62,900 nucleotides of DNA, taken from positions 1-62,900 of the forward strand of contig CABIIJ010000076.1 in the NCBI GenBank assembly GCA_902175065.1, given 5' to 3'. A program made the translations under genes and the position numbers. Every line of letters starts with the position of its first letter. Within the stretch, counting starts at the first letter, position 1. The notes beneath the pieces were generated by a model. It ran no database searches, had not been told where the DNA came from, and saw only the letters and a list, made by a program, of their open reading frames with translations. Of this stretch, positions 20,789 through 36,153 are shown in pieces. Source of the stretch: an uncultured Comamonas sp. (GTDB lineage: Bacteria > Pseudomonadota > Gammaproteobacteria > Burkholderiales > Burkholderiaceae_C).

Positions 20789-21508
20789 TTACTGCGTGGC
20801 ACCAAATACTTTTTTCAGGATGGCGCTGCCCTGGCCGACCGGGTCGCGGCGGATTTTGCGCTCCTCCTCGCCGATCATGAAGAACAGGCCGTCCAGCGTC
20901 TTGCCCGTGACGTACTGCGCCAGGTTGGCGTCTTCCTGCTTGAGCAGGCCGAAGCTGGCCGCCTTGCCGGCAAAGGCGTCGTAGCGCTGCGCCAGCCCGA
21001 CCTTCTGCGTCGATTGCTGCACCACGGGTAAGAAACGCTGGCCCAGCGGCGTACGGGTCTTGCGGGCGAAGAAGTCGGTCACGGCCGTGTCGCCGCCGGC
21101 GAGGATGGTTTTCGCATCCTGCACGCTCATCGACTGCACGGCATCGACCAGCAAGTCCCGCCCCAGCGGCACGGCATCCTCGGCGGCGCGGTTCAGGCTG
21201 GTGACCAGATCGTCGATGCGCTGCCCCTGGCCGAAGCGGCGCATCAGTCTGGCCGCATCGTCGAGCTGCCCCGGCAGGCCGATGCGCACCTGGGGGTTGC
21301 CCAGGAAACCGTCCTTGCGCCCGAGCGTGTCCACCGCCACCCGCGCCCCCTGGGCCAGGGCGGTCTTGACGCCGCTGGCGGCATCGGCGTTGGACAGGGC
21401 CGACAGCGACAAGGCCAGCGCCTGCTGTTGTGCGGCCAGCAGCAGCGACCCCAGGGCAGCGCTGTGCTGCAAGAACCGGCGGCGGGAAGGGGGAGCGAGG
21501 GCGATCAT
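20789..21508 (-). CDS. DUF4197 family exported protein
   Basis: This 239-residue protein begins with a twin-arginine-like stretch (SRRRFLQHSAALGSLLLAA), then a typical DUF4197 body: GVKTALAQGARVAVDTLGRKDGFLGNP, the NRAAEDAVPLGRDLLVDAV block, and TKTLDGLFFMIGEEE-like text near the end. DUF4197 proteins are periplasmic or membrane-associated and of unknown function. It is convergent with the TauE-like gene and is followed upstream by a MITE-like element. No operon partner. Confidence 0.85.
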   Translation of the reverse strand: MIALAPPSRRRFLQHSAALGSLLLAAQQQALALSLSALSNADAASGVKTALAQGARVAVDTLGRKDGFLGNPQVRIGLPGQLDDAARLMRRFGQGQRIDDLVTSLNRAAEDAVPLGRDLLVDAVQSMSVQDAKTILAGGDTAVTDFFARKTRTPLGQRFLPVVQQSTQKVGLAQRYDAFAGKAASFGLLKQEDANLAQYVTGKTLDGLFFMIGEEERKIRRDPVGQGSAILKKVFGATQ

Positions 21509-21796: not shown

Positions 21797-21815
21797 TAGC
21801 AGAATCATTCATTGA

Positions 21816-21827
21816 CCGACCGGTCGG
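21816..21827. promoter_or_regulatory. PaaR-type operator ahead of the HHE hemerythrin gene
   Basis: CCGACCGGTCGG is a perfect 12-bp palindrome within TTGACCGACCGGTCGG and shares its core with sites at 26410 and 29317. TTGACC (21812-21817) could serve as a -35 element, so a bound repressor would block polymerase. It lies 96 bp upstream of the hemerythrin start and just outside the MITE-like element. The interval 21509-21922 holds only this site and the element. Confidence 0.6.
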
Positions 21828-21922
21828 AAATTTGTTACCGTAGCGGGCTATTACGTACCGATCGCATCGATTGCTGCCTGCGGCAGCCCGGTGCCCATCA
21901 CCATTCGGGAGATTTCTGCACC

Positions 21923-22504
21923 ATGTCCTCCATCACCCTCAAGGTCATCCGCGAAGAACACGGCACCTTGGCCGCCATCCTGCGCTCCCTGCGCATGCTG
22001 GCCGAACGCGGCCCCGGCAAGGAAACGGGCACGTTCTTCGACGCCATGCGTGCCATGCTGTTCTATATCGACGAATTTCCCGAGCGCCAGCACCACCCGA
22101 AGGAGACGGAACTGCTCTTCCCGCCCATCGCCCAGCGGGCGCCGGAGGTGGCCGAGGCCATTGCCCGCCTGGACCGCGAGCACGCCGGCGGCGAGGCCGC
22201 CGTGCGCGAGCTGGGCCACCTGCTGCTGGCCTGGGAGCTGATGGGCGAGAGCCGCCGCGCCACCTTCGTCGAAGCGCTGGATCGCTACATCACCTTCTAC
22301 CTGGAGCACATGCGCCTGGAGGAAACCGTGGTGCTGCCCGCCGCACTCCAGCACCTGACCGACGAAGACTGGGCAGCGATGGATGCCGCCTTTGCCAGCA
22401 ACACCGACCTGCTGGCCCGGGGCGCAACGCCCGACCCGGCCTACGAGCGCCTGTTCAGCCGCATCGTCCACAGCGCCCCGCCGCCTCTGGGCATGGGGCG
22501 CTGA
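21923..22504 (+). CDS. Hemerythrin HHE cation-binding domain protein
   Basis: This 193-residue protein has the HHE pattern: EEHGTLAAILR at the start, ERQHHPKETELLFP, LDREHAGGE and FYLEHMRLEETVVLP. Together these supply His/Glu ligands for a diiron centre. Family members act in O2, NO or iron handling. The start MSSITLKV (21923) is chosen; longer in-frame starts run through the operator region. The PaaR-type palindrome upstream suggests coregulation with the O2-dependent phenylacetate pathway. A palindromic repeat follows the gene. Confidence 0.85.
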   Translation: MSSITLKVIREEHGTLAAILRSLRMLAERGPGKETGTFFDAMRAMLFYIDEFPERQHHPKETELLFPPIAQRAPEVAEAIARLDREHAGGEAAVRELGHLLLAWELMGESRRATFVEALDRYITFYLEHMRLEETVVLPAALQHLTDEDWAAMDAAFASNTDLLARGATPDPAYERLFSRIVHSAPPPLGMGR

Positions 22505-22515
22505 ACTCCTGTAAA

Positions 22516-22601
22516 CATAGCTTTTTCCGTTGATGGATAAACGGATATAGATATAAAAATATCCAATATCGTTTATAGATCAGCGGTAACAGCTATTTTT
22601 T
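22516..22601. repeat. Dispersed palindrome copy between convergent HHE and Old Yellow Enzyme genes
   Basis: Outer arms CATAGCT... and ...AGCTATTTTTTT flank nested pairs: GTTGAT/ATCAGC, ATAAACG/CGTTTAT and ATAT/ATAT. The two coding regions end at its edges (22504 and 22602), so the element fills the whole gap and is probably a terminator for both. Confidence 0.7.
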
Positions 22602-24671: not shown

Positions 24672-26327
24672 TCAGGCGTGCTCGCGCCGCTGCACGACTA
24701 CAAAGCGGTCGGCGACAAACGCCAGGGTGGTGTAGCTGGCGTTGGCCGCCGGGTTGCCGCCGCTGGCGTGGTAGTCGGAGAAGGCCGCCGACTGGTTCAC
24801 GTACACCCCCTGGGTCAGGTTGATGGACAGGGCCACGCGGGCGCGGCGCGACAGTTGCACCGTGCGGTCGATGTAGGCGCGGTCGGTGGAATACACGCCC
24901 AGCGTCAGCGCACCGTGTTCGCACAGGGTCGATTGGGCGGTCGCCAGGGCGCTGTCGCTCGAGGCGGTGGCGATCAGGAAGGCGATGGGGCCGAAGCATT
25001 CGTTGGCGAAGGTGGCGCGGTCTGCCTCGGTCAGGGCGACGATCACCGGGCTGTGGATGCGGGCATCCGGGTACTGCGGGTGCGCCAGCGCCTGCGAGGC
25101 CAGCACCACGCGCCCCTTGCCGGCCGCTTCCTGGATGCGGGCCACGGTTTCCGGGGCGCACACCGCGCCCAGCACGGCGGTGGCCACGCGCGGGTTTTCC
25201 GCCAGCTGGCGCACGGCGGCCGCCAGGTCGTCGCACACCTGGTCGAACCCCTTGTGGCCCTGGTCGGTCTGGATGCCGCCCTGGGGGATGTAGATGTTCT
25301 GCGTGGTGGTGCACATCTGGCCGCTGTACAGCGACAGGGTGAAGGCCAGGTTGTTCAGCATGGCCTCGTATTGGTCGGTCGATTCGATGATGACGGTGTT
25401 CACCCCGGCCATTTCGGCATACAGGCGGGCCTGGCGGGCGTTGTCCTGCAGCCAGCGGCCAAACTGGTTGCTGCCGGTGAAGTCGATGCTGGCCACGGCC
25501 GGGCTTTGCGCCAGCGCCTGGGTGTGCGCCGGGTCGTTGGACAGGGCCAGGGTCACGAGGTTGGCGTCCAGCCCCTGCTCGGCCAGCACCTCGCGCAGGA
25601 TGCTGACGGTGATGGCGGCCGGCAGCACCGCGTTGGGGTGGGGCTTGACGATGACCGGGTTGCCGGTGGCCAGCGCGGCGAACAGGCCGGGATAGGTGTT
25701 CCAGGTGGGGAAGGTGGCGCAGCCGATCACCAGGCCGATGCCCCGGCCCACGATGTCGAAATGTTTTTTCATCACCAGCGGCGGGTTTTTGCCCTGGGGC
25801 TTTTCCCAGGTGGCTTCGGCGGGGACGTCTGCCATCGCTTTGTAGGCGTAGGCAATGGCTTCCAGCGCCCGGTCCTGCGCATGGGGGCCACCGGCCTGGA
25901 AAGCCATCATCGGGCCTTGGCCGGTGGTCAGCATGACGGCGTGGGTGATTTCGTGGCTGCGCCGATGGATGCGGGTCAGCGCCTCCAGCAGCACACCCAC
26001 GCGGCCTTGCACGCCCAGGGCCATCCAGGCCGGTTCGGCAGCCTGGGCGGCGGCGATCAGCGCATCGGCGCGGCATTCGGGGTAGCGCACGCCGATGTCC
26101 ACGCCGTAGGGGGAGCGCTCGGTGGCAATGCGGCCCGTCTCGCCGGGCTGCTGGAGCGGGTAGTCCTGGCCCAGCAAGGCTTGCACTGCGGCCTGGCCGT
26201 CGGCCTGGGCGGTTTCGCCGTAGATCTTGGGCGAGGCGTTCTCGGGGAACGGCGACCAGTAGGTACGTGCGGCAGAGGCGGCCAGGGCGCCGTCGAGCAG
26301 GGCACGGTGGGTGTCGAACAGGGTCAT
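24672..26327 (-). CDS. paaN: PaaN-type aldehyde dehydrogenase of phenylacetyl-CoA ring opening
   Basis: This 551-residue ALDH of the PaaN group oxidises the semialdehyde made when the oxepin-CoA ring is opened. ALDH residues are N210 (PTWNTYPG), K228 (VIVKPHPN), E305 (YAEMAGVN) and C339 (YSGQMCTTTQ). Unlike E. coli PaaZ (~680 residues) it has no C-terminal MaoC hydratase, so the oxepin-CoA hydrolase must be encoded elsewhere. It is divergent from paaG across a 170-bp interval carrying a PaaR-type palindrome and a good sigma-70 promoter. Confidence 0.9.
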   Translation of the reverse strand: MTLFDTHRALLDGALAASAARTYWSPFPENASPKIYGETAQADGQAAVQALLGQDYPLQQPGETGRIATERSPYGVDIGVRYPECRADALIAAAQAAEPAWMALGVQGRVGVLLEALTRIHRRSHEITHAVMLTTGQGPMMAFQAGGPHAQDRALEAIAYAYKAMADVPAEATWEKPQGKNPPLVMKKHFDIVGRGIGLVIGCATFPTWNTYPGLFAALATGNPVIVKPHPNAVLPAAITVSILREVLAEQGLDANLVTLALSNDPAHTQALAQSPAVASIDFTGSNQFGRWLQDNARQARLYAEMAGVNTVIIESTDQYEAMLNNLAFTLSLYSGQMCTTTQNIYIPQGGIQTDQGHKGFDQVCDDLAAAVRQLAENPRVATAVLGAVCAPETVARIQEAAGKGRVVLASQALAHPQYPDARIHSPVIVALTEADRATFANECFGPIAFLIATASSDSALATAQSTLCEHGALTLGVYSTDRAYIDRTVQLSRRARVALSINLTQGVYVNQSAAFSDYHASGGNPAANASYTTLAFVADRFVVVQRREHA

Positions 26328-26394: not shown

Positions 26395-26423
26395 AGCATA
26401 TTATTTACCGACCGATCGGTCAA
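26395..26423 (-). promoter_or_regulatory. paaN promoter overlapped by a PaaR-type operator
   Basis: On the minus strand TTGACC (26418-26423), 17 bp, then TATGCT (26395-26400) forms a sigma-70-like promoter for paaN. The 12-bp palindrome GACCGATCGGTC (26410-26421), within ACCGACCGATCGGTCA, covers the -35 region and spacer. That is a classic repression geometry, and it lies between divergent paaN and paaG. Confidence 0.65.
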
Positions 26424-26498
26424 ACATGTTTTTGACTTATCGCAAAACAGCATTGGCAACGTGATTACCCCTTTTCACCCTTGAACAGCTTGTCCTCT

Positions 26499-27302
26499 AT
26501 GTCCGAACCTCTTGTCCTGGCGTCCCGATCGGGCGCTGTGCAGACCCTGACCCTGAACCGCCCGGCGGCCCTGAACAGTTTCACGACCGCGCTGCACGCC
26601 CAATTGCTGGCCGCCCTGGAAGCTGCGGCGGCCGATGCCAGCGTGCGCTGCGTCGTGCTGACCGGTGCCGGGCGCGGCTTTTGCGCCGGGCAGGATCTGG
26701 CCGACCCGGCCGTTGCGCCCGATACGGCCCCGGGCGCTGCCGCCAAGGACCTGGGCGACGTGATCGAGCGCTTCTACCGTCCGCTGTGCCTGCGCCTGCG
26801 CTCCATGCCCGTGCCCGTGGTGGCCGCCGTCAATGGCGTGGCTGCCGGGGCCGGGGCCAGCATTGCCCTGGGCTGCGATCTGGTGCTGGCGGGGCGCTCG
26901 GCCAGTTTCATCCAGGCGTTCACCCGGATCGGCCTGCTGCCCGACAGCGGCGGTACCTGGCTGCTGCCGCGCCTGGTGGGCCGCGCCAACGCCCTGGGGC
27001 TGGCGCTGCTGGGTGACAAGCTGAGTGCCGAAGACGCCCAGCGCATCGGCCTGATCTGGCGCTGTGTCGAAGACGACGTGCTGGCCGAAGAGGCGCAAGC
27101 CCTGGCCCAACGCCTGGCGGCCATGCCCACCCAGGCTTTGGTGACGACCCGCGCGGCCCTGGATGCGGCGCTGACGCTGGACTGGCCCACCGCCCTGGCG
27201 CAGGAGGCCGTGCACCAGCGCCGCCTGGGCCAGGCTGGCGATTACCGCGAAGGCGTGCTGGCGTTCACCGAGAAACGCCCGCCGCAATTCACGGATCGCT
27301 GA
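26499..27302 (+). CDS. paaG: 1,2-Epoxyphenylacetyl-CoA isomerase
   Basis: This 267-residue crotonase-fold isomerase converts ring-1,2-epoxyphenylacetyl-CoA to oxepin-CoA and also acts later on dehydroadipyl-CoA isomers. The PaaG-typical GRGFCAGQDLADPAV stretch and VAAGAGASIALGCDLVLAG give the oxyanion hole, followed by IGLLPDSGGTWLLPRLVG. The ATG at 26499 is preferred over a TTG six codons upstream. It leads the plus-strand run paaG-paaI-paaK, divergent from paaN under a shared operator. Confidence 0.93.
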   Translation: MSEPLVLASRSGAVQTLTLNRPAALNSFTTALHAQLLAALEAAAADASVRCVVLTGAGRGFCAGQDLADPAVAPDTAPGAAAKDLGDVIERFYRPLCLRLRSMPVPVVAAVNGVAAGAGASIALGCDLVLAGRSASFIQAFTRIGLLPDSGGTWLLPRLVGRANALGLALLGDKLSAEDAQRIGLIWRCVEDDVLAEEAQALAQRLAAMPTQALVTTRAALDAALTLDWPTALAQEAVHQRRLGQAGDYREGVLAFTEKRPPQFTDR

Positions 27303-27865: not shown

Positions 27866-29179
27866 ATGACCGTCACACGCCCCGCCCCGGGAGAGCTGGA
27901 GCCGATCGAAACCGCCAGCCGCGACGAAATCCAGGCACTGCAATTGCAGCGCCTGCGCTGGTCGCTGCAACATGCCTACGACAACGTGCCGCATTACCGC
28001 AAGGCGTTCGACGAAAGATGCGTCCGCCCCTGCGACCTGAAAACCCTGGCCGACCTGTCCAAGTTCCCTTTCACCTACAAGAAAGACCTGCGCGACAACT
28101 ACCCCTTCGGCATGTTCGCCGTGCCGCGCAACCAGTTGCTGCGCGTCCATGCCTCCTCGGGCACCACGGGCAAGCCGACGGTGGTGGGCTACACCGCCAG
28201 GGACATCGACACCTGGGCCAACCTGGTGGCGCGTTCCATCCGCGCTGCGGGTGGCCGCCCCGGCGACATGGTGCACATCGCCTACGGCTACGGCCTGTTC
28301 ACCGGCGGCCTGGGGGCGCACTACGGTGCCGAGCGGGCCGGCTGTACGGTGGTGCCGATGTCCGGCGGGCAGACGGAAAAGCAGGTGCAGCTCATCCAGG
28401 ACTTCAAGCCGGACATCATCATGGTCACCCCCTCGTACATGCAGGTGATCGTGGAGGAGTTCCAGCGCCAGGGGCTGGATGCGCGGGACAGCTCCCTGAA
28501 AGTCGGCATTTTCGGGGCCGAACCCTGGACGGAAGCGATGCGCCAGGAGATCGAGGCCAAGGCCGGCATTGCCGCCGTCGACATTTACGGCCTGTCTGAA
28601 ATCATGGGGCCGGGCGTGGCCAGCGAGTGCGTGGAAAGCCAGGACGGCCCGGTGATCTGGGAAGACCATTTCTATCCCGAAATCATCGACCCGCAGACCG
28701 GCGAAGTGCTGCCCGACGGGCAGGAGGGCGAGCTGGTGTTCACCTCCCTGTCCAAGGAGGCGCTGCCCATGATCCGCTACCGTACGCGGGATCTGACGCG
28801 GCTGCTGGCCCCCACTTCGCGCAGCTTCCGGCGCATGGGCAAGATCGTGGGCCGCTCGGACGACATGCTCATCATCCGTGGCGTCAACATGTTTCCCACG
28901 CAGATCGAGGAAATCGTGCTGCAGCACCGTTCGCTCTCCGGCCAGTACCAGATCCACGTCACCCGCGACGGCACCCTGGACAAGGTGGCCGTGCGCTGCG
29001 AGCTGCAGCCCGGCATCCCGTCGGGCACCGAGGAGGTGCGAAAAATCGGCCAATGGCTCCAGCACCGCATCAAGACCCTGGTGGGCATCACCACCCAGGT
29101 GGACGTGCTGGATTACGGCGCGATCGAGCGCACCCTGGTGGGCAAGGCCCGACGGGTGATCGACCAACGGCCACGCTGA
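27866..29179 (+). CDS. paaK: Phenylacetate-CoA ligase
   Basis: This 437-residue adenylate-forming enzyme activates phenylacetate to phenylacetyl-CoA with ATP. The P-loop-like signature is SSGTTGKPTVVGYT. The aromatic-binding region around GAHYGAERAGCTVVPMSGG and the C-terminal domain hinge (GRSDDMLIIRGVNMFPTQIEE) are typical of PaaK. CGGAGACAAACCC precedes the ATG. It is the entry step of the pathway and the last gene of the paaG-paaI-paaK run; a perfect hairpin follows. Confidence 0.95.
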   Translation: MTVTRPAPGELEPIETASRDEIQALQLQRLRWSLQHAYDNVPHYRKAFDERCVRPCDLKTLADLSKFPFTYKKDLRDNYPFGMFAVPRNQLLRVHASSGTTGKPTVVGYTARDIDTWANLVARSIRAAGGRPGDMVHIAYGYGLFTGGLGAHYGAERAGCTVVPMSGGQTEKQVQLIQDFKPDIIMVTPSYMQVIVEEFQRQGLDARDSSLKVGIFGAEPWTEAMRQEIEAKAGIAAVDIYGLSEIMGPGVASECVESQDGPVIWEDHFYPEIIDPQTGEVLPDGQEGELVFTSLSKEALPMIRYRTRDLTRLLAPTSRSFRRMGKIVGRSDDMLIIRGVNMFPTQIEEIVLQHRSLSGQYQIHVTRDGTLDKVAVRCELQPGIPSGTEEVRKIGQWLQHRIKTLVGITTQVDVLDYGAIERTLVGKARRVIDQRPR

Positions 29180-29246
29180 TCGCAGAGCGGCCCCGAGGCA
29201 ACTGGTTTCAAGAACACCGCCCCCTGCCATCCCGCAGGAGCGGCTA

Positions 29247-29279
29247 GGAACCGGCCCGTTCCATGAATGGGCCGGTTCC
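29247..29279 (+). terminator. Hairpin after paaK
   Basis: An 11-bp perfect stem, GGAACCGGCCC (29247-29257) with GGGCCGGTTCC (29269-29279), and an 11-base loop. No U-tract follows, so it may be a rho-assisted terminator or a 3'-end stabiliser. It separates paaK from the PaaR-type operator of the next operon. Confidence 0.5.
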
Positions 29280-29316
29280 GGGGGCGGTGATGCCCGAATC
29301 ACCTCTCCTTTTTATT

Positions 29317-29330
29317 ACCGACCGGTCGGT
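29317..29330. promoter_or_regulatory. PaaR-type operator ahead of the R2-like diiron/paaABCDE operon
   Basis: ACCGACCGGTCGGT is a perfect 14-bp palindrome, the best of three related sites. It lies 35 bp upstream of the diiron gene start, within an A/T-rich stretch (TTATTACCG...TTTATTTAAATACC) that should contain the promoter. Repression by the TetR-type PaaR encoded at 35497, relieved by phenylacetyl-CoA, is inferred from Burkholderia precedent. Confidence 0.65.
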
Positions 29331-29364
29331 TTATTTAAATACCTTCACAAGGAGACATCTCGCC

Positions 29365-30387
29365 ATGCGTAAAGAAAAACTTGCCCACACGATGGAGTTC
29401 CCGCCTGCCATCGAGCAGCCCAACGTCTACCCGCTGTCCTGGCACCAGCACACGAAAAAGCTGGAGGAAATCTGGGACGCTTCGCGCCGCGAGGTCTGGG
29501 ACCCCAAGAAACTGCCCTGGGACACGTTCGACGTGAACAAATACACCTGGGAGCAGCGCGAGGCCATCGCCTACTGGTGGACGCTGCTGTCGGTGTTCGA
29601 CGCCTCTGCGCCGCCGGTGTTCGCTTCGGCGCTGATCAAGACCTACGAGGCCCATGAGGAAGACGCCGTGCGCCGCTGCTTCTTCAGCGTCACGCAGGAC
29701 GAGCAGAACCATGAGCAGATGTGCGGCCTGGCCATCACCAAGTTTCTGGAGCATCCCGATCCGATCACCTACACGCCCAAGACCGAACTGGGCAAGCGCC
29801 TGCAAAAGAACGCCAAGTGGCTCTACCACAATGGCGCCCGCTACTGGACGGGCTACAAGACGGCCGTGCCCAAATACAGCCTGGCCGTGCTGTTCAGCTC
29901 CTTCCTGATGGGCGAGATCGCAGCCGCCACCATCTTCCACCAGATGGCCGCCGGCTGCACCGAGCCGGTGTTCAAGGAAGCCTTCCGCAACATCGGCAAG
30001 GACGAGGGCCGCCACATGGGCATCTGCCTGGCGTTGATGGAGCGCGACTATCCCAAGATCGCCGTGGAAGACCGCGCCCTGATCACCAAGCAGATCCGTG
30101 CCGGCTACCTGTTCCTGTCCGCCGTGCTGTTCGAGCCGCCGATGGAGTTCTGGGATCTGCCCGAGGACTTTATCGAGAGCCAGCGTGCGGGCGAGGCCGC
30201 AGCCCGCGCCGCCGGGTTTGCCATTCCCGAGTACGAGGCCAAGAAGAACAACTGGCGCACCGCCATCCTGAACCTCAAGGGGGCGCTGGACAAGTACGAC
30301 ATCCCCTTCCCGGCGATCCCCGAGGTGGGCATCACCGGCGAGGAAGTCTCGGACGTGGACCTGGACGACATCATCCCCGTGTTCTAA
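29365..30387 (+). CDS. R2-like diiron protein of unknown function at the head of the paaABCDE operon
   Basis: This 340-residue ferritin-like helical protein has two E-x2-H motifs, E113-x2-H116 (TQDEQNHEQ) and E214-x2-H217 (GKDEGRHMG). E184 (MGEIAAA) lies 30 residues before the second, the spacing of R2/AurF-type carboxylate-bridged diiron enzymes; D79 or E95 may be the remaining ligand. It is not PaaA, which is encoded separately at 31496. A [2Fe-2S]/flavin reductase follows 47 bp later, so the pair looks like a two-component diiron oxygenase. It is the first gene after a perfect PaaR-type operator and has its own AAGGAGACAT site. It could pre-oxidise an aromatic precursor or protect the epoxidase; the substrate is unknown. 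Confidence 0.75.
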   Translation: MRKEKLAHTMEFPPAIEQPNVYPLSWHQHTKKLEEIWDASRREVWDPKKLPWDTFDVNKYTWEQREAIAYWWTLLSVFDASAPPVFASALIKTYEAHEEDAVRRCFFSVTQDEQNHEQMCGLAITKFLEHPDPITYTPKTELGKRLQKNAKWLYHNGARYWTGYKTAVPKYSLAVLFSSFLMGEIAAATIFHQMAAGCTEPVFKEAFRNIGKDEGRHMGICLALMERDYPKIAVEDRALITKQIRAGYLFLSAVLFEPPMEFWDLPEDFIESQRAGEAAARAAGFAIPEYEAKKNNWRTAILNLKGALDKYDIPFPAIPEVGITGEEVSDVDLDDIIPVF

Positions 30388-30434
30388 GCACCGGCACCCC
30401 GTTCCGCTTTTTCAGAACTTCGCAAATAACCACC

Positions 30435-31478
30435 ATGACCTCCCACATCAAGCTGTACCCCTCCGGGCAGACCGTCGCGTGCGACAGCGGCCAGACCGTG
30501 CTCGAAGCCCTTGAACGCTCAGGCTATGCCCTGCCCAACAACTGCCGTGCCGGCGCCTGCGGCGAGTGCAAGGTGAAAGTGCGTTCGGGCCAGTTCGACC
30601 AGGGTTTCGTGCTCGACATGGCGCTGTCGCAGGACGAGCGTGCCCAGGGGTATGGCCTGATGTGCATGGCCAAGCCACTGTCGCCAGAGCTGGAAATCGA
30701 ATGGGGCACGGAGGATGCCAAGCCCCAGCTCTTTCCCGCCCGCGAATCGCAGTACGCCGTGCTGGTCGACCGCATCGCCCGCACGCCGCGCATTACCGAG
30801 TTCGTGCTGCGCCCCCTGGGCGAAGCCATGCGCTTCTGGCCCGGCCAGTACGTGCAGCTGGGCGATGCCGGCCAGGGCATCCCGGTGCGCAGCTACTCGC
30901 TGGCCAGCGCCCCCCGGCACGACGGCGAAATCCGCCTGCAGGTCACCCGCGTCGATGCCGATGCGGCCAACACCCCCGCCGGGCGCACCAGTCGCTGGCT
31001 GCACGACGAGGTGGCGCTGGGCGCCCAACTGCGCTTTTCCGGCCCGCATGGCACCTTCATCGGCGACCCTGCGGCCGACACCCCGGTGCTGTGCCTGGCC
31101 GCCGGCTCCGGCCTGGCACCCATTCTTTCACTGACCGAAGCGGCCCTGCGCCGGGGCTACAAGCAGCCGGTGACGCTGATGTTCTCCGCCCGCGAGGCGG
31201 CGGACCTGTACGACGTCGGCCTGATGCGCTACTGGCAGTTGCGCTACCCCAACTTCCGCTACCTGCCCACGCTGACGCGGGATACGGGGGACGCGCAGGA
31301 CGGGGTGCTGCACGGGCGCATCCCGGCCATCCTGGGCCAGCATTTTCCCGACTTGAGCGGCTACAGCGTCTTCGTTGCGGGCACCACCGCCTTCGTCGAT
31401 GACTGCGTGGCTGCCGCCAGGGCGCTGGGCGCACAGCCCGCGCTGATCCATACCGAAGGCTTTTTCGCCCAGGTTTAA
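30435..31478 (+). CDS. Ferredoxin-flavin reductase partner of the R2-like protein
   Basis: This 347-residue protein has an N-terminal plant-type ferredoxin domain (C37, C42, C45, C77 in [11 protein letters not shown] and GLMC). An FNR-type flavin domain (VRSYSLAS) and an NAD domain ([11 protein letters not shown]) follow. The order Fd-FAD-NAD is that of class IB oxygenase reductases such as DmpP or BenC. PaaE, downstream, has the opposite order (FAD-NAD-Fd), so this is a second, dedicated reductase. The start at 30435 sits 47 bp after the diiron gene and it ends 17 bp before paaA. It most likely feeds electrons from NADH to the R2-like protein. Confidence 0.88.
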
Positions 31479-31495
31479 GCCACGAAAGGAACACC

Positions 31496-32488
31496 ATGTA
31501 CACCCAAGCAATGGACACCCTGGGCAAGGAGGCGGCCTCTGCCCCCGTGCCGCACAGTGCCGACGAGGCGCGGCTGCAGGCCCGCTTCGACGCCCGCATC
31601 GACGCGGGCGAGTTCATCGAGGCCAAGGACTGGATGCCCGAGCATTACCGCAAGACCCTGGTGCGCCAGATCAGCCAGCACGCCCATTCGGAAATCGTCG
31701 GCATGTTGCCCGAGGGCAACTGGGTGACGCGGGCGCCCACGCTCAAGCGCAAGGCCATCCTGCTGGCCAAGATCCAGGACGAAGGCGGCCACGGCCTGTA
31801 CCTGTATTCCGCCGCCGAGACCCTGGGCACCAGCCGCGACGAGATGCTGGACGCCCTGCACACGGGCCGCGCCAAGTACAGCTCCATCTTCAACTACCCC
31901 ACGCTGACCTGGGCGGACATGGGCGTGATCGGCTGGCTGGTCGATGGCGCGGCCATCATGAACCAGGTGCCCATCTGCCGCTGCTCCTACGCGCCCTACG
32001 CCCGGGCCATGGTGCGCATCTGCCGCGAGGAGAGCTTTCACCAGCGCCAGGGCTACGACGCCCTGCTGACCATGATGGAGCAGGGCACCGACGCCCAGCG
32101 GGCCATGGTGCAGGATGCGGTGAACCGCTGGTGGTGGCCCGCGCTGATGATGTTCGGCCCGCCGGACGACCAGTCGCCCAACAGCGCCCTGTCCATGCGC
32201 TGGGGCATCAAGCGCATCTCCAACGACGAACTGCGCCAGAAATTCATCGACGCCACCGTGCCCCAGGCCGAACTGCTGGGCGTGACGCTGCCCGACCCCG
32301 CCCTGCGATGGAACGCCGACCGCGAGCACTTCGACTTCGGCCCGATCGACTGGCCCGAGTTCTGGCAGGTGGTCGGCGGCGACGGCCCCTGCAACCGCGA
32401 ACGCCTGGGCGCCCGCGTGCAGGCCTGGGAGGACGGCGCCTGGGTGCGCGAGGCCGCCCTGGCCCATGCCGCCAAAGCCGAGCATTAA
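31496..32488 (+). CDS. paaA: Ring-1,2-phenylacetyl-CoA epoxidase subunit PaaA
   Basis: This 330-residue catalytic subunit holds the diiron centre that epoxidises phenylacetyl-CoA. Ligands matching E. coli PaaA with a +24 offset are E66 (HSEIVGM), E96-x2-H99 (QDEGGHG), D150 (WLVDGAA) and E179-x2-H182 (EESFHQRQ). The N-terminal ~24-residue extension is longer than in E. coli; a later ATG (MDTLGKEA) is possible. GAAAGGAACACC precedes the first ATG. It is separated from paaB by a palindromic repeat. Confidence 0.95.
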
Positions 32489-32595: not shown

Positions 32596-32919
32596 ATGAA
32601 CATCCCCAAGCACCCCACCGACCCCGCGACAGCCACCGCCACCGAATGGCCGCTGTGGGAAGTTTTCGTGCGCAGCAAGGCGGGCCTGGACCACAAGCAC
32701 TGCGGCAGCCTGCATGCCGCCGATGCCGCGATGGCCATCCAGATGGCCCGCGACGTCTACACCCGCCGCCAGGAAGGCAGCAGCGTCTGGGTGGTGCGCT
32801 CCGAGCAGATCGTGGCCAGCGACCCCGGCGACAAGGCCATGTATTTCGACCCGGCCGAGGACAAGGTCTACCGCCACCCGACTTTCTACGTCCTGCCCCA
32901 GGCCGTGAACCACATGTAA
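32596..32919 (+). CDS. paaB: Phenylacetyl-CoA epoxidase subunit PaaB
   Basis: This 107-residue protein carries the family text WPLWEVFVRSKAGLDHKHCGSLHA and VYTRRQEGSSVWVVRSEQIVAS. PaaB bridges the PaaAC heterodimers in the epoxidase complex and has no metal site. The N-terminus is slightly long (Thr/Pro-rich). It starts 107 bp after paaA, across the repeat element, with AAGAGAGTTTCCC upstream. Confidence 0.95.
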   Translation: MNIPKHPTDPATATATEWPLWEVFVRSKAGLDHKHCGSLHAADAAMAIQMARDVYTRRQEGSSVWVVRSEQIVASDPGDKAMYFDPAEDKVYRHPTFYVLPQAVNHM

Positions 32920-32937: not shown

Positions 32938-33711
32938 ATGCAAAGCATCCACATTGGCAATGCCCCGGCCTTCCGCTACCTGCTGCGCCTGGGCGACACC
33001 TGCCTGATCCTGGGCCAGCGCCTGTGCGAATGGTCGGGCCACGCCCCCATCCTGGAAGAGGACATCGCCCTGTCCAACATGGCGCTGGACCTGATCGGCC
33101 AGGCCCGCGCCGTGCTCACCCACGCCGGCCGGGTTGATGGCCGTGGCCATGACGAAGACCAGCTGGCCTTCCTGCGCAACGAGGCCGATTACTGCAACCC
33201 GACCATCGCCGAGCTGCCCCGGGGCGACTTCGCCTTCACCACCCTGCGCAACGCGCTGCTGGCCACGCTGCTCAAGCACCTGTGGCAATGCCTGCAGGAC
33301 TCCAGCGACGCCGAACTGGCCGCGATTGCCGCCAAGGCCGTCAAGGAGGCCCGCTACCACCAGCAGCACGCAGGCGACTGGGTGGTGCGCCTGGGCGACG
33401 GCACGCCCGAATCGCGCCGCCGGATGCAGCAGGCGCTGGCCAGCCTGTGGCCCTACACCGCCGAACTCTTTGCGCCGGACGCCGTGGACGAACACGCCCA
33501 TGCCAGCCGCCTTGGCCCGCGCTGGGCCGACGTCGAGGCCGACTGGCTCGAAGACGTGCGCCAGATGCTGGCCGCCGCCGACCTGGAGCTGCCCGCGCAG
33601 GAGGGCCGGTTCCGCAGCACCGGCAGGCTGGGCCGCCACAGCGAGCACATGGGCTACCTGCTGGCCGAAATGCAGCACCTGCAGCGCAGCTATCCGGAAG
33701 GGGTGTGGTGA
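32938..33711 (+). CDS. paaC: Phenylacetyl-CoA epoxidase structural subunit PaaC
   Basis: This 257-residue ferritin-like subunit is related to PaaA but has lost iron ligands, and it forms the PaaAC core. Typical blocks are YLLRLGDTCLILGQRLCEWSG, NMALDLIGQARAVL, KEARYHQQHAGDWVVRLGDGT and GRLGRHSEHMGYLLAEMQ. Its stop codon overlaps the paaD start (TGATG), and it follows paaB by 18 bp. Confidence 0.95.
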   Translation: MQSIHIGNAPAFRYLLRLGDTCLILGQRLCEWSGHAPILEEDIALSNMALDLIGQARAVLTHAGRVDGRGHDEDQLAFLRNEADYCNPTIAELPRGDFAFTTLRNALLATLLKHLWQCLQDSSDAELAAIAAKAVKEARYHQQHAGDWVVRLGDGTPESRRRMQQALASLWPYTAELFAPDAVDEHAHASRLGPRWADVEADWLEDVRQMLAAADLELPAQEGRFRSTGRLGRHSEHMGYLLAEMQHLQRSYPEGVW

Positions 33712-34244
33712 TGGTGGCCGAGGATGTCCGCATCCAGCAGGCCTGGGAGGTGCTGGGCACCGTGCCCGACCCCGAAGTGCCCGCCGTCTCGCTGTGCGAC
33801 CTGGGCATCGTGCGGGCCGTGCGCCTGGCCGATGCCGGCGCAGCGCAGGCCGGTGGCGTGCTGGAAATCGTCCTGACCCCCACCTACAGCGGCTGCCCGG
33901 CCACCGAGGTGATTGCGTCCGACGCGCTGGCCGCCATCGATGCGGCGGGCCTGGGGCCGGCCCGGGCCACGCTGCAACGTGCGCCCGCCTGGACGACCGA
34001 CTGGATCAGCGCCGAAGGGCGCGAAAAGCTGCGGGCCTACGGTATCGCCCCGCCCGGGCCGGTGGCTGCCGATGCGGGCGTGCCCGTTCGCTTCATGCCC
34101 CGGCGTCCCGCCCCCAGCGTGCCCTGCCCGCACTGCGCCGGCACGCATACCGAGCGCCTGGCGGCCTTTGGCGCCACCGCCTGCAAGGCGCTGTACCGCT
34201 GCCTGGACTGCCGCGAGCCGTTCGAGCATTTCAAGCCTATCTGA
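33711..34244 (+). CDS. paaD: Iron-sulfur assembly-type protein PaaD
   Basis: This 177-residue protein has an N-terminal MIP18/DUF59 domain (AWEVLGTVPDPEVPAVSLCDLGIV, then LTPTYSGCPATEVI) and a C-terminal zinc-ribbon-like part (CPHCAGTHTERLAAFG...CKALYRCLDC). It is thought to help load the iron-sulfur or diiron centres of the epoxidase complex. Its ATG overlaps the paaC stop by one base; a GTG two codons upstream is an alternative. Confidence 0.93.
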   Translation: MVAEDVRIQQAWEVLGTVPDPEVPAVSLCDLGIVRAVRLADAGAAQAGGVLEIVLTPTYSGCPATEVIASDALAAIDAAGLGPARATLQRAPAWTTDWISAEGREKLRAYGIAPPGPVAADAGVPVRFMPRRPAPSVPCPHCAGTHTERLAAFGATACKALYRCLDCREPFEHFKPI

Positions 34245-34257
34245 TGAAGCCATTGCC

Positions 34258-35343
34258 ATGAGCGTTTCCTTCCACCCCTTGCGCGTATGCGCCATCGAAC
34301 CGGATACCGCCGAGGCGGTCATCGTCTCCTTCGAGGTGCCGCCTGCGCTGCGCCAGGTCTTCGGCTTCATCCAGGGCCAGTACCTCACGCTGCGCACCAC
34401 CATCGACGGCCAGGACGTGCGCCGCTCCTACTCCATCTGCGCCGGCGTGGACGAGGCCCACCTGCGCGTGGGCGTGCGCCGCGTCGCCGGCGGCCTGTTT
34501 TCCAACTGGATCCACCGCCGCCTCAAGGTGGGCGACACCCTGCAGGTCATGGCCCCGCAAGGGCGCTTTTACGTCCCGCTGGACGCCGGCGCCCGGCGCC
34601 ACTACCTGGGCATTGCCGGGGGCAGCGGCATCACGCCCATCCTGTCCATCATGAAAACCGTGCTGGCCCGCGAGCCGCAGAGCCGCTTCACCCTGCTGTA
34701 TGCCAACCGCACGCTGCAATCGACCATGTTCAAGGAGGAGCTGGAAGATGTGAAGAACCGCTACCTCACGCGTGTGGCGCTGCACCATGTGTTCTCCGAC
34801 GAAGCCACCGAGGCGCCGATCAACATGGGGCTGATGAACCGCGACAAGGTGGGCGAATTTCTGCGCCACGTCGTGCCGCCTGCGCAGATCGGCGAAGCCT
34901 TCGTCTGCGGCCCCTTCCAGATGAACGACGAGGCCCAGGCCGCCCTGCTGGCCGCCGGCGTGCCCGAGGAGCGCATCCACGTCGAGCGCTTTGGCGTCGC
35001 GCTGTCCGCCGCCGGCCAGGTCGGCGCGGCAGTCCACCAGGTGCAGGAAGGCGATGCCGAGCAGGCGCAGATCACCATCGTGCGCGATGGCCTGAAGCGT
35101 GAGTTCGGCTTTCGCAAGGAGCAGCCCAGCATTCTGGATGCCGCCTCCGTCGCCGGGCTGGAAGTGCCGTTTTCCTGCACCTCGGGCGTGTGCGGCACCT
35201 GCCGCGCCAAATGCCTGGAAGGCCAGGTGCGCATGGAGCGCAACTTCGCCCTGGACAAGGACGAGGTGGCGGCCGGTTTCGTCCTCACCTGCCAGTGCCG
35301 TCCCCTGACGCCGCAGGTCGTGCTGTCCTTCGATGAACGCTGA
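34258..35343 (+). CDS. paaE: Phenylacetyl-CoA epoxidase reductase PaaE
   Basis: This 361-residue reductase transfers electrons from NADPH to the PaaA diiron site. The N-terminal FAD domain (RRSYSICAG) and nucleotide domain (IAGGSGITPILSIMK) are followed by a C-terminal plant-type ferredoxin (C307, C312, C315, C345). The start at 34258 gives the family length; upstream in-frame extension overlaps paaD. It is the last epoxidase gene; a 153-bp gap separates it from paaR. Confidence 0.95.
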   Translation: MSVSFHPLRVCAIEPDTAEAVIVSFEVPPALRQVFGFIQGQYLTLRTTIDGQDVRRSYSICAGVDEAHLRVGVRRVAGGLFSNWIHRRLKVGDTLQVMAPQGRFYVPLDAGARRHYLGIAGGSGITPILSIMKTVLAREPQSRFTLLYANRTLQSTMFKEELEDVKNRYLTRVALHHVFSDEATEAPINMGLMNRDKVGEFLRHVVPPAQIGEAFVCGPFQMNDEAQAALLAAGVPEERIHVERFGVALSAAGQVGAAVHQVQEGDAEQAQITIVRDGLKREFGFRKEQPSILDAASVAGLEVPFSCTSGVCGTCRAKCLEGQVRMERNFALDKDEVAAGFVLTCQCRPLTPQVVLSFDER

Positions 35344-35496: not shown

Positions 35497-36153
35497 ATGG
35501 CCCGAGGACGCTCATCCGGATACGAAGACCAGCGCGAGCTGATCTTGCTGCACGCCGCCGAACTGTTTGCCCAGCGCGGCTACTCGGCCACGTCCATGAA
35601 TGGCGTGGCCGAAGCCTGCGGCCTGTCCAAGCCGGCCCTGTACCACTACTTCCGCGACAAGTACGACCTGCTGGTGAACATCGCGGAAAACCACATCGTG
35701 CGCCTGCAGGCCCTGGTCAGCGAGGTGGCCGAGCTGGAGCTGGAGCCAGAGGCGCGGCTGCGCGAGCTGATCCGCCGCTTCGTCATCGAATACGCCCAGG
35801 CCCAGCACGCTCACCGCGTGCTGATCGAGGACATCAAATTCCTCACCGAAGCCGACCAGGCCCGCATCCTGGGTTCCGAACGCCAGGTCACCCGCGAGTT
35901 TTCCAGCACCGTGGAAGCGTTGTGGCCGCATCTGGGCCAGGAGCGCCTGTCCAAGCCCACCACCATGCTGCTGTTCGGCATGATCAACTGGATGTTCACG
36001 TGGTTCCGCCCCGGCGGCGCACTCAGCTACGAGGACATGGCCCCCATCGTGACCGACCTTTTCTTCGGCGGCGCTGCGGCAGTGCGCCGGCCTGCAGCGG
36101 CCACCGCCTCGCCCGCTTCATCCCCCCCTTCTCCTACGAAAGCAAATACATGA
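35497..36153 (+). CDS. paaR: TetR family regulator PaaR (Burkholderia type)
   Basis: This 218-residue TetR protein has an N-terminal helix-turn-helix (about 10-58: LFAQRGYSATSMNGVAEACG, then SKPALYHYFRDKYDLL) and a C-terminal ligand domain. TetR-type PaaR regulators of betaproteobacteria and Thermus repress paa genes and respond to phenylacetyl-CoA, unlike the GntR-type PaaX of E. coli. Three matching palindromes in the window fit a TetR dimer. GAAGGAGGAATACCACC is a strong ribosome-binding site. Its stop overlaps the thiolase start (ATGA). The last ~30 residues are an Ala/Pro/Ser-rich tail. Confidence 0.9.
   Translation: MARGRSSGYEDQRELILLHAAELFAQRGYSATSMNGVAEACGLSKPALYHYFRDKYDLLVNIAENHIVRLQALVSEVAELELEPEARLRELIRRFVIEYAQAQHAHRVLIEDIKFLTEADQARILGSERQVTREFSSTVEALWPHLGQERLSKPTTMLLFGMINWMFTWFRPGGALSYEDMAPIVTDLFFGGAAAVRRPAAATASPASSPPSPTKANT

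Follow-up and report, generated by a model that had tools for sequence, protein, structure and literature searches.

A gene pair at the head of a Comamonas paaABCDE operon, probably encoding an alternative two-component phenylacetyl-CoA oxygenase

Introduction

The phenylacetate pathway is a central route in the breakdown of phenylalanine, styrene and other aromatics. According to the available parts of PMC9493321 and PMC9007349, its epoxidation step is carried out by PaaABCDE, and PaaG then forms oxepin-CoA. The window, a stretch of 62,900 nucleotides from an uncultured Comamonas sp. (contig CABIIJ010000076.1), encodes these enzymes, and two further genes are placed immediately before paaA. 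What does this pair do in a cluster that already contains PaaABCDE? An earlier note had described it as a two-component diiron oxygenase tied to paa regulation and lacking an assigned function, a description that our analysis bears out, and had offered precursor oxidation, detoxification and alternative ring oxygenation as its possible roles.

Results

The gene pair and the host paa cluster

As the earlier note had stated, ORFs for a 340-residue R2-like protein and a ferredoxin-FAD-NAD reductase precede paaA; the gene order on the + strand is paaK, the R2-like gene, the reductase gene and paaA. The features of the window that are used here are as follows.

21815-21828, unstranded: third PaaR-type palindrome, 1 mismatch, flanked by a DUF4197 gene (20789-21508, - strand) and an ORF (21871-22533, + strand) that has no Pfam match
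24672..26327, - strand: paaN-type aldehyde dehydrogenase (551 aa; Aldedh; the homologue at locus L069, 54% identical, passes TIGR02288)
26407..26420, unstranded: second PaaR-type palindrome, 1 mismatch, in the paaN-paaG intergenic region
26481..27302, + strand: paaG, epoxide isomerase, start uncertain (ORF; L069 homologue, 56% identical, above the TIGR02280 cut-off)
27866..29179, + strand: paaK, phenylacetate-CoA ligase (ORF; L069 homologue, 63% identical, passes TIGR02155)
29317..29330, unstranded: putative PaaR-type operator palindrome ACCGACCGGTCGGT (exact match)
29365 (ATG) to 30387 (stop), + strand: R2-like diiron oxygenase component (340 aa), proposed alternative phenylacetyl-CoA oxygenase (ORF, alignment, predicted fold)
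30435 (ATG) to 31478 (stop), + strand: reductase of the R2-like protein (347 aa; Pfam domains, tblastn)
31496..32488, + strand: paaA, canonical epoxidase catalytic subunit (PF05138, 317 bits)
32596..32919, + strand: paaB (ORF; tblastn conservation with paa loci)
32938..33711, + strand: paaC (ORF; tblastn conservation)
33717..34244, + strand: paaD, start approximate (ORF end; tblastn conservation)
34258..35343, + strand: paaE, canonical epoxidase reductase with C-terminal ferredoxin (TIGR02160, 434 bits, cut-off 421, scanned from 34294)
35497..36153, + strand: TetR-family regulator, probable PaaR (TetR-type matches, none over cut-off among the 25 listed; position in the paa cluster)

The reductase has three Pfam domains, all above cut-off: an N-terminal Fer2 (residues 7-81), FAD_binding_6 (113-208) and NAD_binding_1 (221-324). 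This is the layout of the BenC/MmoC type of ferredoxin-FAD-NAD oxygenase reductases, and the best NCBIfam model was BenC, at 144.7 bits far below its cut-off of 430.

The R2-like protein reached no curated Pfam or NCBIfam cut-off. Its Pfam scores for AurF (18.7 bits, cut-off 29.6) and Rubrerythrin (19.3 bits, cut-off 22.8) were below threshold, as were three NCBIfam matches at 12.5-19.8 bits. No PHROGs match was found at E≤0.001, and a PDB sequence search gave weak or local helix-pair matches alone (best E 0.031 and 0.0043). The predicted fold was R2lox/RNR-R2-like; BoxB, PaaA and PaaC were missing among the 50 Foldseek/VIA matches listed, an absence that proves nothing.

The diiron ligands proposed earlier, E113, H116, E184, E214 and H217, were invariant in all 77 aligned sequences, and so were D79 and C120. 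The alignment consisted of the window protein and proteins from 76 of the 80 loci described below (L046, L084, L088 and L091 were left out). Judged by its spacing, D79 is plausibly the sixth metal ligand.

The PaaR-type operator

The palindrome ACCGACCGGTCGGT lies 34 bases 5' of the R2-like start codon, and 29317-29330 is its only exact occurrence in the 3.23-Mb genome; the pair does lie directly behind the best PaaR-type palindrome, as had been claimed. The Thermus PaaR consensus AACnAACGTTnGTT, given in the available part of PMC6651687, has the same layout. Three sites in the genome have at most one mismatch to the palindrome and all of them are in the window (29317, 26407 and 21815). As a control, the pattern read backwards occurred 13 times per strand in the genome. 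With up to three mismatches, the window contained 9 sites against 3.56 expected.

On 92 loci (1.53 Mb) the combined pattern gave 13 sites, of which three repeat the window or genomes counted elsewhere (L001, L005, L006), against 0 in one mononucleotide shuffle. A PaaR-type site starts 47-254 bases 5' of R2 in the window and in eight of the 80 loci (L013, L014, L037, L041, L050, L071, L076, L089); in L022 and L057 it is located elsewhere. No paa marker gene adjoins R2 in five of these eight loci, and the site thus ties some stand-alone R2 copies to the PaaR regulon too. Phenylacetyl-CoA is the known ligand of PaaX. PaaR reportedly has the same ligand, going by the title of a 2011 study by Sakamoto.

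An inverted repeat of 15 nt around a 3-nt loop (29247-29279) separates paaK from the R2 operator and possibly divides two transcription units. No sigma-70-like promoter was found in 29150-29400.

Distribution of the pair

A genome scan for the R2-like protein gave 432 relatives, and the best 80 of the 432, 78-97% identical, were kept. Many of the genomes compared are MAGs. The co-occurrence check suggested earlier was run on the 80 loci, with paa markers defined as ORF clusters named by scanned representatives or by tblastn with the window genes. The reductase was found behind R2 in 80/80 loci by tblastn (in 76 as the next called ORF), and at least one of nine paa markers was present in 43. 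PaaX occurred in 26 loci and was at most two genes from R2 in 23. The other 37 loci, some of them short contigs, had none of the nine tested markers beside R2. Among relatives of the host, a strong R2 match was seen in 3 of 52 other genomes of the same genus, 0 of 7 of the same family and 1 of 40 of the same order; four more matches were weak and partial (E 4.8e-4 to 8.3e-4).

In the R2 tree, locus L045, whose MAG bears the label Stygiobacter, falls among Magnetospirillum proteins that are nearly identical to its own, and is probably a misbinned contig or a recent transfer.

A second subfamily was seen at 47-56% identity: L003 8989-11041 (Variovorax plasmid), L004 8962-9978 (Nonomuraea), G270:C118 and G271:C47. 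The Variovorax homologue (51% identical) lies in another CoA-thioester cluster, with an AMP-binding protein, a thiolase with an OB-fold protein, MaoC, an enoyl-CoA hydratase and a Liv transporter, and an indolepyruvate ferredoxin oxidoreductase gene is near it. This context suggests another arylacetyl-CoA substrate for the second subfamily. No reductase was detected by tblastn beside the Nonomuraea copy.

Presence and absence of PaaA

Fifty R2 genomes were hand-picked and scanned for PaaA with TIGR02156, and those without PaaA over the cut-off were scanned for PaaG with TIGR02280 (cut-off 345.15 bits). PaaA was over the cut-off in 33 of them, so that the pair is often redundant, and was not in 17. 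The word "extra" that had been applied to the pair is right for the host, which also has PaaABCDE, but not for the family. No PaaA match at E≤0.001 was found in 14 of the 17 PaaA-negative genomes, and PaaG was over the cut-off in 15 of the 17 and at 340.2 bits in one; G143, a Bacteriovoracaceae MAG with R2, had no PaaG match at E≤1e-70. Three of the 17 (G131, G132 and G143) encode a protein with distant similarity to PaaA (68-120 bits against a cut-off of 280), and in the R2-only genome G279 such a protein adjoins R2. A replacement of PaaA is therefore a weaker claim for these four genomes. Bifunctional PaaZ was found in 1 of 25 genomes and is too scarce to be usable as a downstream marker; in 12 of the 25, a PaaN-type dehydrogenase was seen close to paa genes.

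Beside PaaX and R2, the loci L058 (7089-8403), L059 and the R2-only L098 (near 2719), all from Azospirillaceae genomes without canonical PaaA, encode a 272-aa protein that distantly resembles PaaA (69 bits to TIGR02156); in L058 and L059 a 183-aa neighbour accompanies it. In these three loci the PaaA-like protein might be the oxygenase itself.

Two families were then scanned as wholes. Among 104 genomes of Arcobacteraceae, the family of G121, R2 (76-80% identity) was present in 8, PaaG in 9 (7 over the cut-off and 2 at 337-340 bits) and PaaA in 1 (E≤1e-10). The nine genomes with PaaG are exactly the eight that have R2 without PaaA and the one that has PaaA without R2. For the 103 PaaA-negative genomes, a one-sided Fisher test that ignores relatedness gave 4e-12 when the two sub-cut-off PaaG proteins were counted and 2e-8 under the strict cut-off.

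Among 82 genomes of Azospirillaceae, the family of G131, R2 orthologues (77-81%) were present in 28, PaaA in 29 and PaaG over the cut-off in 36. PaaG accompanies R2 in every one of the 28 and PaaA in every one of the 29; 23 genomes have both oxygenases and five have R2 without PaaA. Of the 48 genomes with neither oxygenase, two have PaaG (G293:C16 and G298:C68), and these are incomplete assemblies or contain yet another oxygenase. For the PaaA-negative genomes of this family the one-sided Fisher test, again ignoring relatedness, gave 7e-6; the PaaG absences are less sure here because for many genomes scoring covered only 27 first-look candidates per genome.

Mapped onto a tree built from 51 R2 proteins, the absence of PaaA required 9 changes, at least five of them on well-supported branches, against a shuffled mean of 14.2. 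PaaA-negative and PaaA-positive genomes thus interleave.

Gene order in clusters with and without PaaABCDE

The exchange of the two oxygenases can be followed in G244 and G121. In G244, which has PaaA and no R2, the order is paaN and paaF-G-H-I-J-K-X, followed by PaaE-D-C-B-A on the opposite strand. G121, which has R2 and no PaaA, contains the same paa genes (identity to G244: N 82%, F 80%, G 87%, H 81%, I 51%, J 90%, K 92%, X 81%) with two additional genes separating K from X, and the cluster is followed by reductase-R2 and a Liv-type transporter, not by PaaABCDE. PaaA of G244 runs into a contig end and the assembly is 1.7 Mb, so the absence of R2 from it may reflect incompleteness.

Other genomes show further arrangements. 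X-reductase-R2-N-G-H-I-K-J forms a single block in G263, and R2-reductase and N-G-H-I-J-K lie in one 20-kb stretch in G266, G279 and G131. In G126, which has both oxygenases, the order is A-B-C-D-E-N-G-I-K and R2 is elsewhere. The paa clusters of Tepidiphilus margaritifer (G142), in whose genome no PaaA match to TIGR02156 was found, and of a Magnetospirillum MAG (G109) lack A-E, and both genomes carry R2-reductase elsewhere. For part of the family, 37 of the 80 loci being marker-free, the R2-reductase pair thus occupies the oxygenase slot of a PaaX- or PaaR-controlled paa cluster.

Comparison with known diiron systems

The R2-like protein is not an ordinary ribonucleotide reductase subunit, the identity that the earlier note had wished to see checked. 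The window protein gave no Ribonuc_red_sm match at E≤0.5, and the class 1b model scored 12.5 bits against a cut-off of 486; weak Ribonuc_red_sm matches occurred in 7 of 18 family members scanned (best E 4.8e-5). From the E115/H118/Y122 spacing of E. coli R2, the radical Tyr falls on Cys120, the invariant cysteine noted above. Some RNR classes also lack the radical Tyr. The subunit was ruled out by the lack of a curated match together with Cys120, the dedicated reductase and the paa context. R2lox is characterised by a Mn/Fe cofactor, a bound long-chain ligand and a Tyr-Val crosslink. The pair differs from both R2lox and class I RNR R2 in an identity of about 10% and in having its own reductase partner.

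Like all 18 family members scanned (best E 8.1e-6), the window protein has weak similarity to the AurF/CmlI-type N-oxygenases (PF11583), but it stays under the gathering score (18.7 against 29.6 bits), its context is different and it has its own reductase.

The proposed reaction, the slot in the pathway, the PaaX/PaaR regulators, the diiron chemistry and an NAD(P)H-dependent ferredoxin-FAD reductase are features that the pair shares with PaaABCDE. In that enzyme the catalytic subunit is PaaA, and PaaE serves as reductase, so the remark that PaaE already supplies the epoxidase should have named PaaABCDE. The catalytic part is PaaA+B+C(+D) in PaaABCDE but a single gene in the pair, and the ferredoxin domain is C-terminal in PaaE but N-terminal in the reductase of the pair; the two reductases thus have different layouts. 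The R2-like protein gave no PF05138 match at E≤0.5 and no TIGR02156 match at E≤0.1, and as a diverged PaaA or PaaC it was rejected by hhalign, whose comparison of (shallow) profiles gave probabilities of 0.7% for PaaA and 0.2% for PaaC.

BoxAB, the benzoyl-CoA 2,3-epoxidase, resembles the pair in being a two-component diiron epoxidase acting on an aryl-CoA, with a single-polypeptide oxygenase. According to the available part of PMC4498308, BoxB is a structural homologue of PaaA that is unable to oxygenate phenylacetyl-CoA, and BoxA has two [4Fe-4S] clusters. A substitution by BoxB was rejected on this inactivity and on the lack of BoxB among the NCBIfam matches at E≤0.1.

Discussion

We consider the pair to be an alternative two-component phenylacetyl-CoA oxygenase (epoxidase) that has no detectable homology to PaaA or PaaC and that serves in this genome as a second isozyme next to PaaABCDE, with a probability of about 0.75. 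On the sequence observations given above (the pair with its conserved ligands, the operator, the frequent linkage to paa genes and the paa clusters that hold the pair without PaaABCDE), a role at the phenylacetyl-CoA oxygenase step of the pathway is strongly supported, and in some bacteria the pair seems to be the sole oxygenase of the pathway. Because near-complete paa clusters carry it without PaaABCDE in several lineages, it looks like an alternative version of the oxygenase step, and the earlier statement that placed both genes outside the phenylacetyl-CoA pathway is probably wrong. Of the three roles first offered for the pair, the comparative data favour alternative ring oxygenation.

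We infer the substrate, the epoxide product, the cofactor and the reason for two enzymes as follows. Electrons would pass from NAD(P)H to FAD and the [2Fe-2S] cluster in the reductase and on to the diiron site of the R2-like protein. The reduced diiron site would activate O2 and insert one oxygen atom into the phenylacetyl-CoA ring, giving the 1,2-epoxide, which PaaG would convert to oxepin-CoA for further degradation by PaaN/PaaZ and PaaF-J. The epoxide is proposed because PaaG and PaaN are retained; PaaG also acts at a later point of the phenylacetate pathway, so its retention is no proof of an epoxide product. In the Comamonas-like host the PaaR-type operator would control the second isozyme, which perhaps serves at low O2 or acts on ring-substituted substrates. 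Denitrifiers or microaerophiles make up many of the hosts (Azoarcus, Pseudothauera, Denitromonas, Magnetospirillum, Accumulibacter, Arcobacter), and these lifestyles may point to an enzyme for low O2.

The 33 genomes that also have PaaA, the host among them, do not obviously need a second phenylacetyl-CoA oxygenase, and the pair might instead oxidise a precursor that feeds phenylacetyl-CoA (phenylacetaldehyde, phenylethylamine, styrene-type or hydroxyphenyl compounds) and be merely co-regulated. We regard this as unlikely: PaaA-negative genomes with a paa cluster would be left without a ring oxygenase, and in Arcobacteraceae the pair takes the position that PaaABCDE has in the other cluster type. 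A little less probable again is that the pair oxygenates a related CoA ester, such as hydroxy- or otherwise substituted phenylacetyl-CoA, which would then be the only compound that PaaA-negative hosts degrade via PaaG/N/H/J. The CoA-thioester cluster of the 51%-identical Variovorax homologue agrees with this, since several different arylacetyl-CoA esters may be substrates across the wider family, but many orthologues (at least 76% identity) occur with PaaK, PaaX or a PaaR-type site, and the known ligand of these regulators is phenylacetyl-CoA itself. An accessory oxidoreductase for detoxifying leaked epoxide or tropone-type shunt products, or for scavenging O2, is very improbable, since, although the epoxide is toxic and PaaABCE can itself deoxygenate it (available part of PMC4498308), paa clusters without any other ring oxygenase would go unexplained.

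The reading as an alternative phenylacetyl-CoA oxygenase can be extended to the family, for which we would give even odds to the full account. In it, a second phenylacetyl-CoA ring epoxidase arose independently from an R2lox/RNR-R2-like scaffold and has a reductase of its own. PaaABCDE would have given way to this enzyme in Campylobacterota, Azospirillaceae, Magnetospirillum-like bacteria, Accumulibacter, Tepidiphilus and a myxobacterial MAG. Many denitrifying or microaerophilic bacteria would keep it as a second isozyme, perhaps for low O2, and the wider family (about 50% identity) would oxygenate other arylacetyl-CoA esters.

No alternative phenylacetyl-CoA oxygenase is named in the open-access literature consulted, including the available parts of PMC9007349, PMC13186573, PMC6515984, PMC6651687, PMC9765128, PMC9416434, PMC9493321 and PMC4498308; a prior description in subscription papers or preprints is possible. 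The available part of PMC13186573, a 2026 survey, mentions paa configurations without the epoxidase module, names no replacement there, and takes paaA/paaC as the genomic marker of the phenylacetate pathway. If our reading is true, surveys based on paaA/paaC miss degraders without PaaABCDE, a large unnamed protein family gains a function, and a compact two-gene oxygenase becomes available for aryl-CoA chemistry. The pair also raises a testable question, namely why a single step is served by two non-homologous enzymes in many bacteria.
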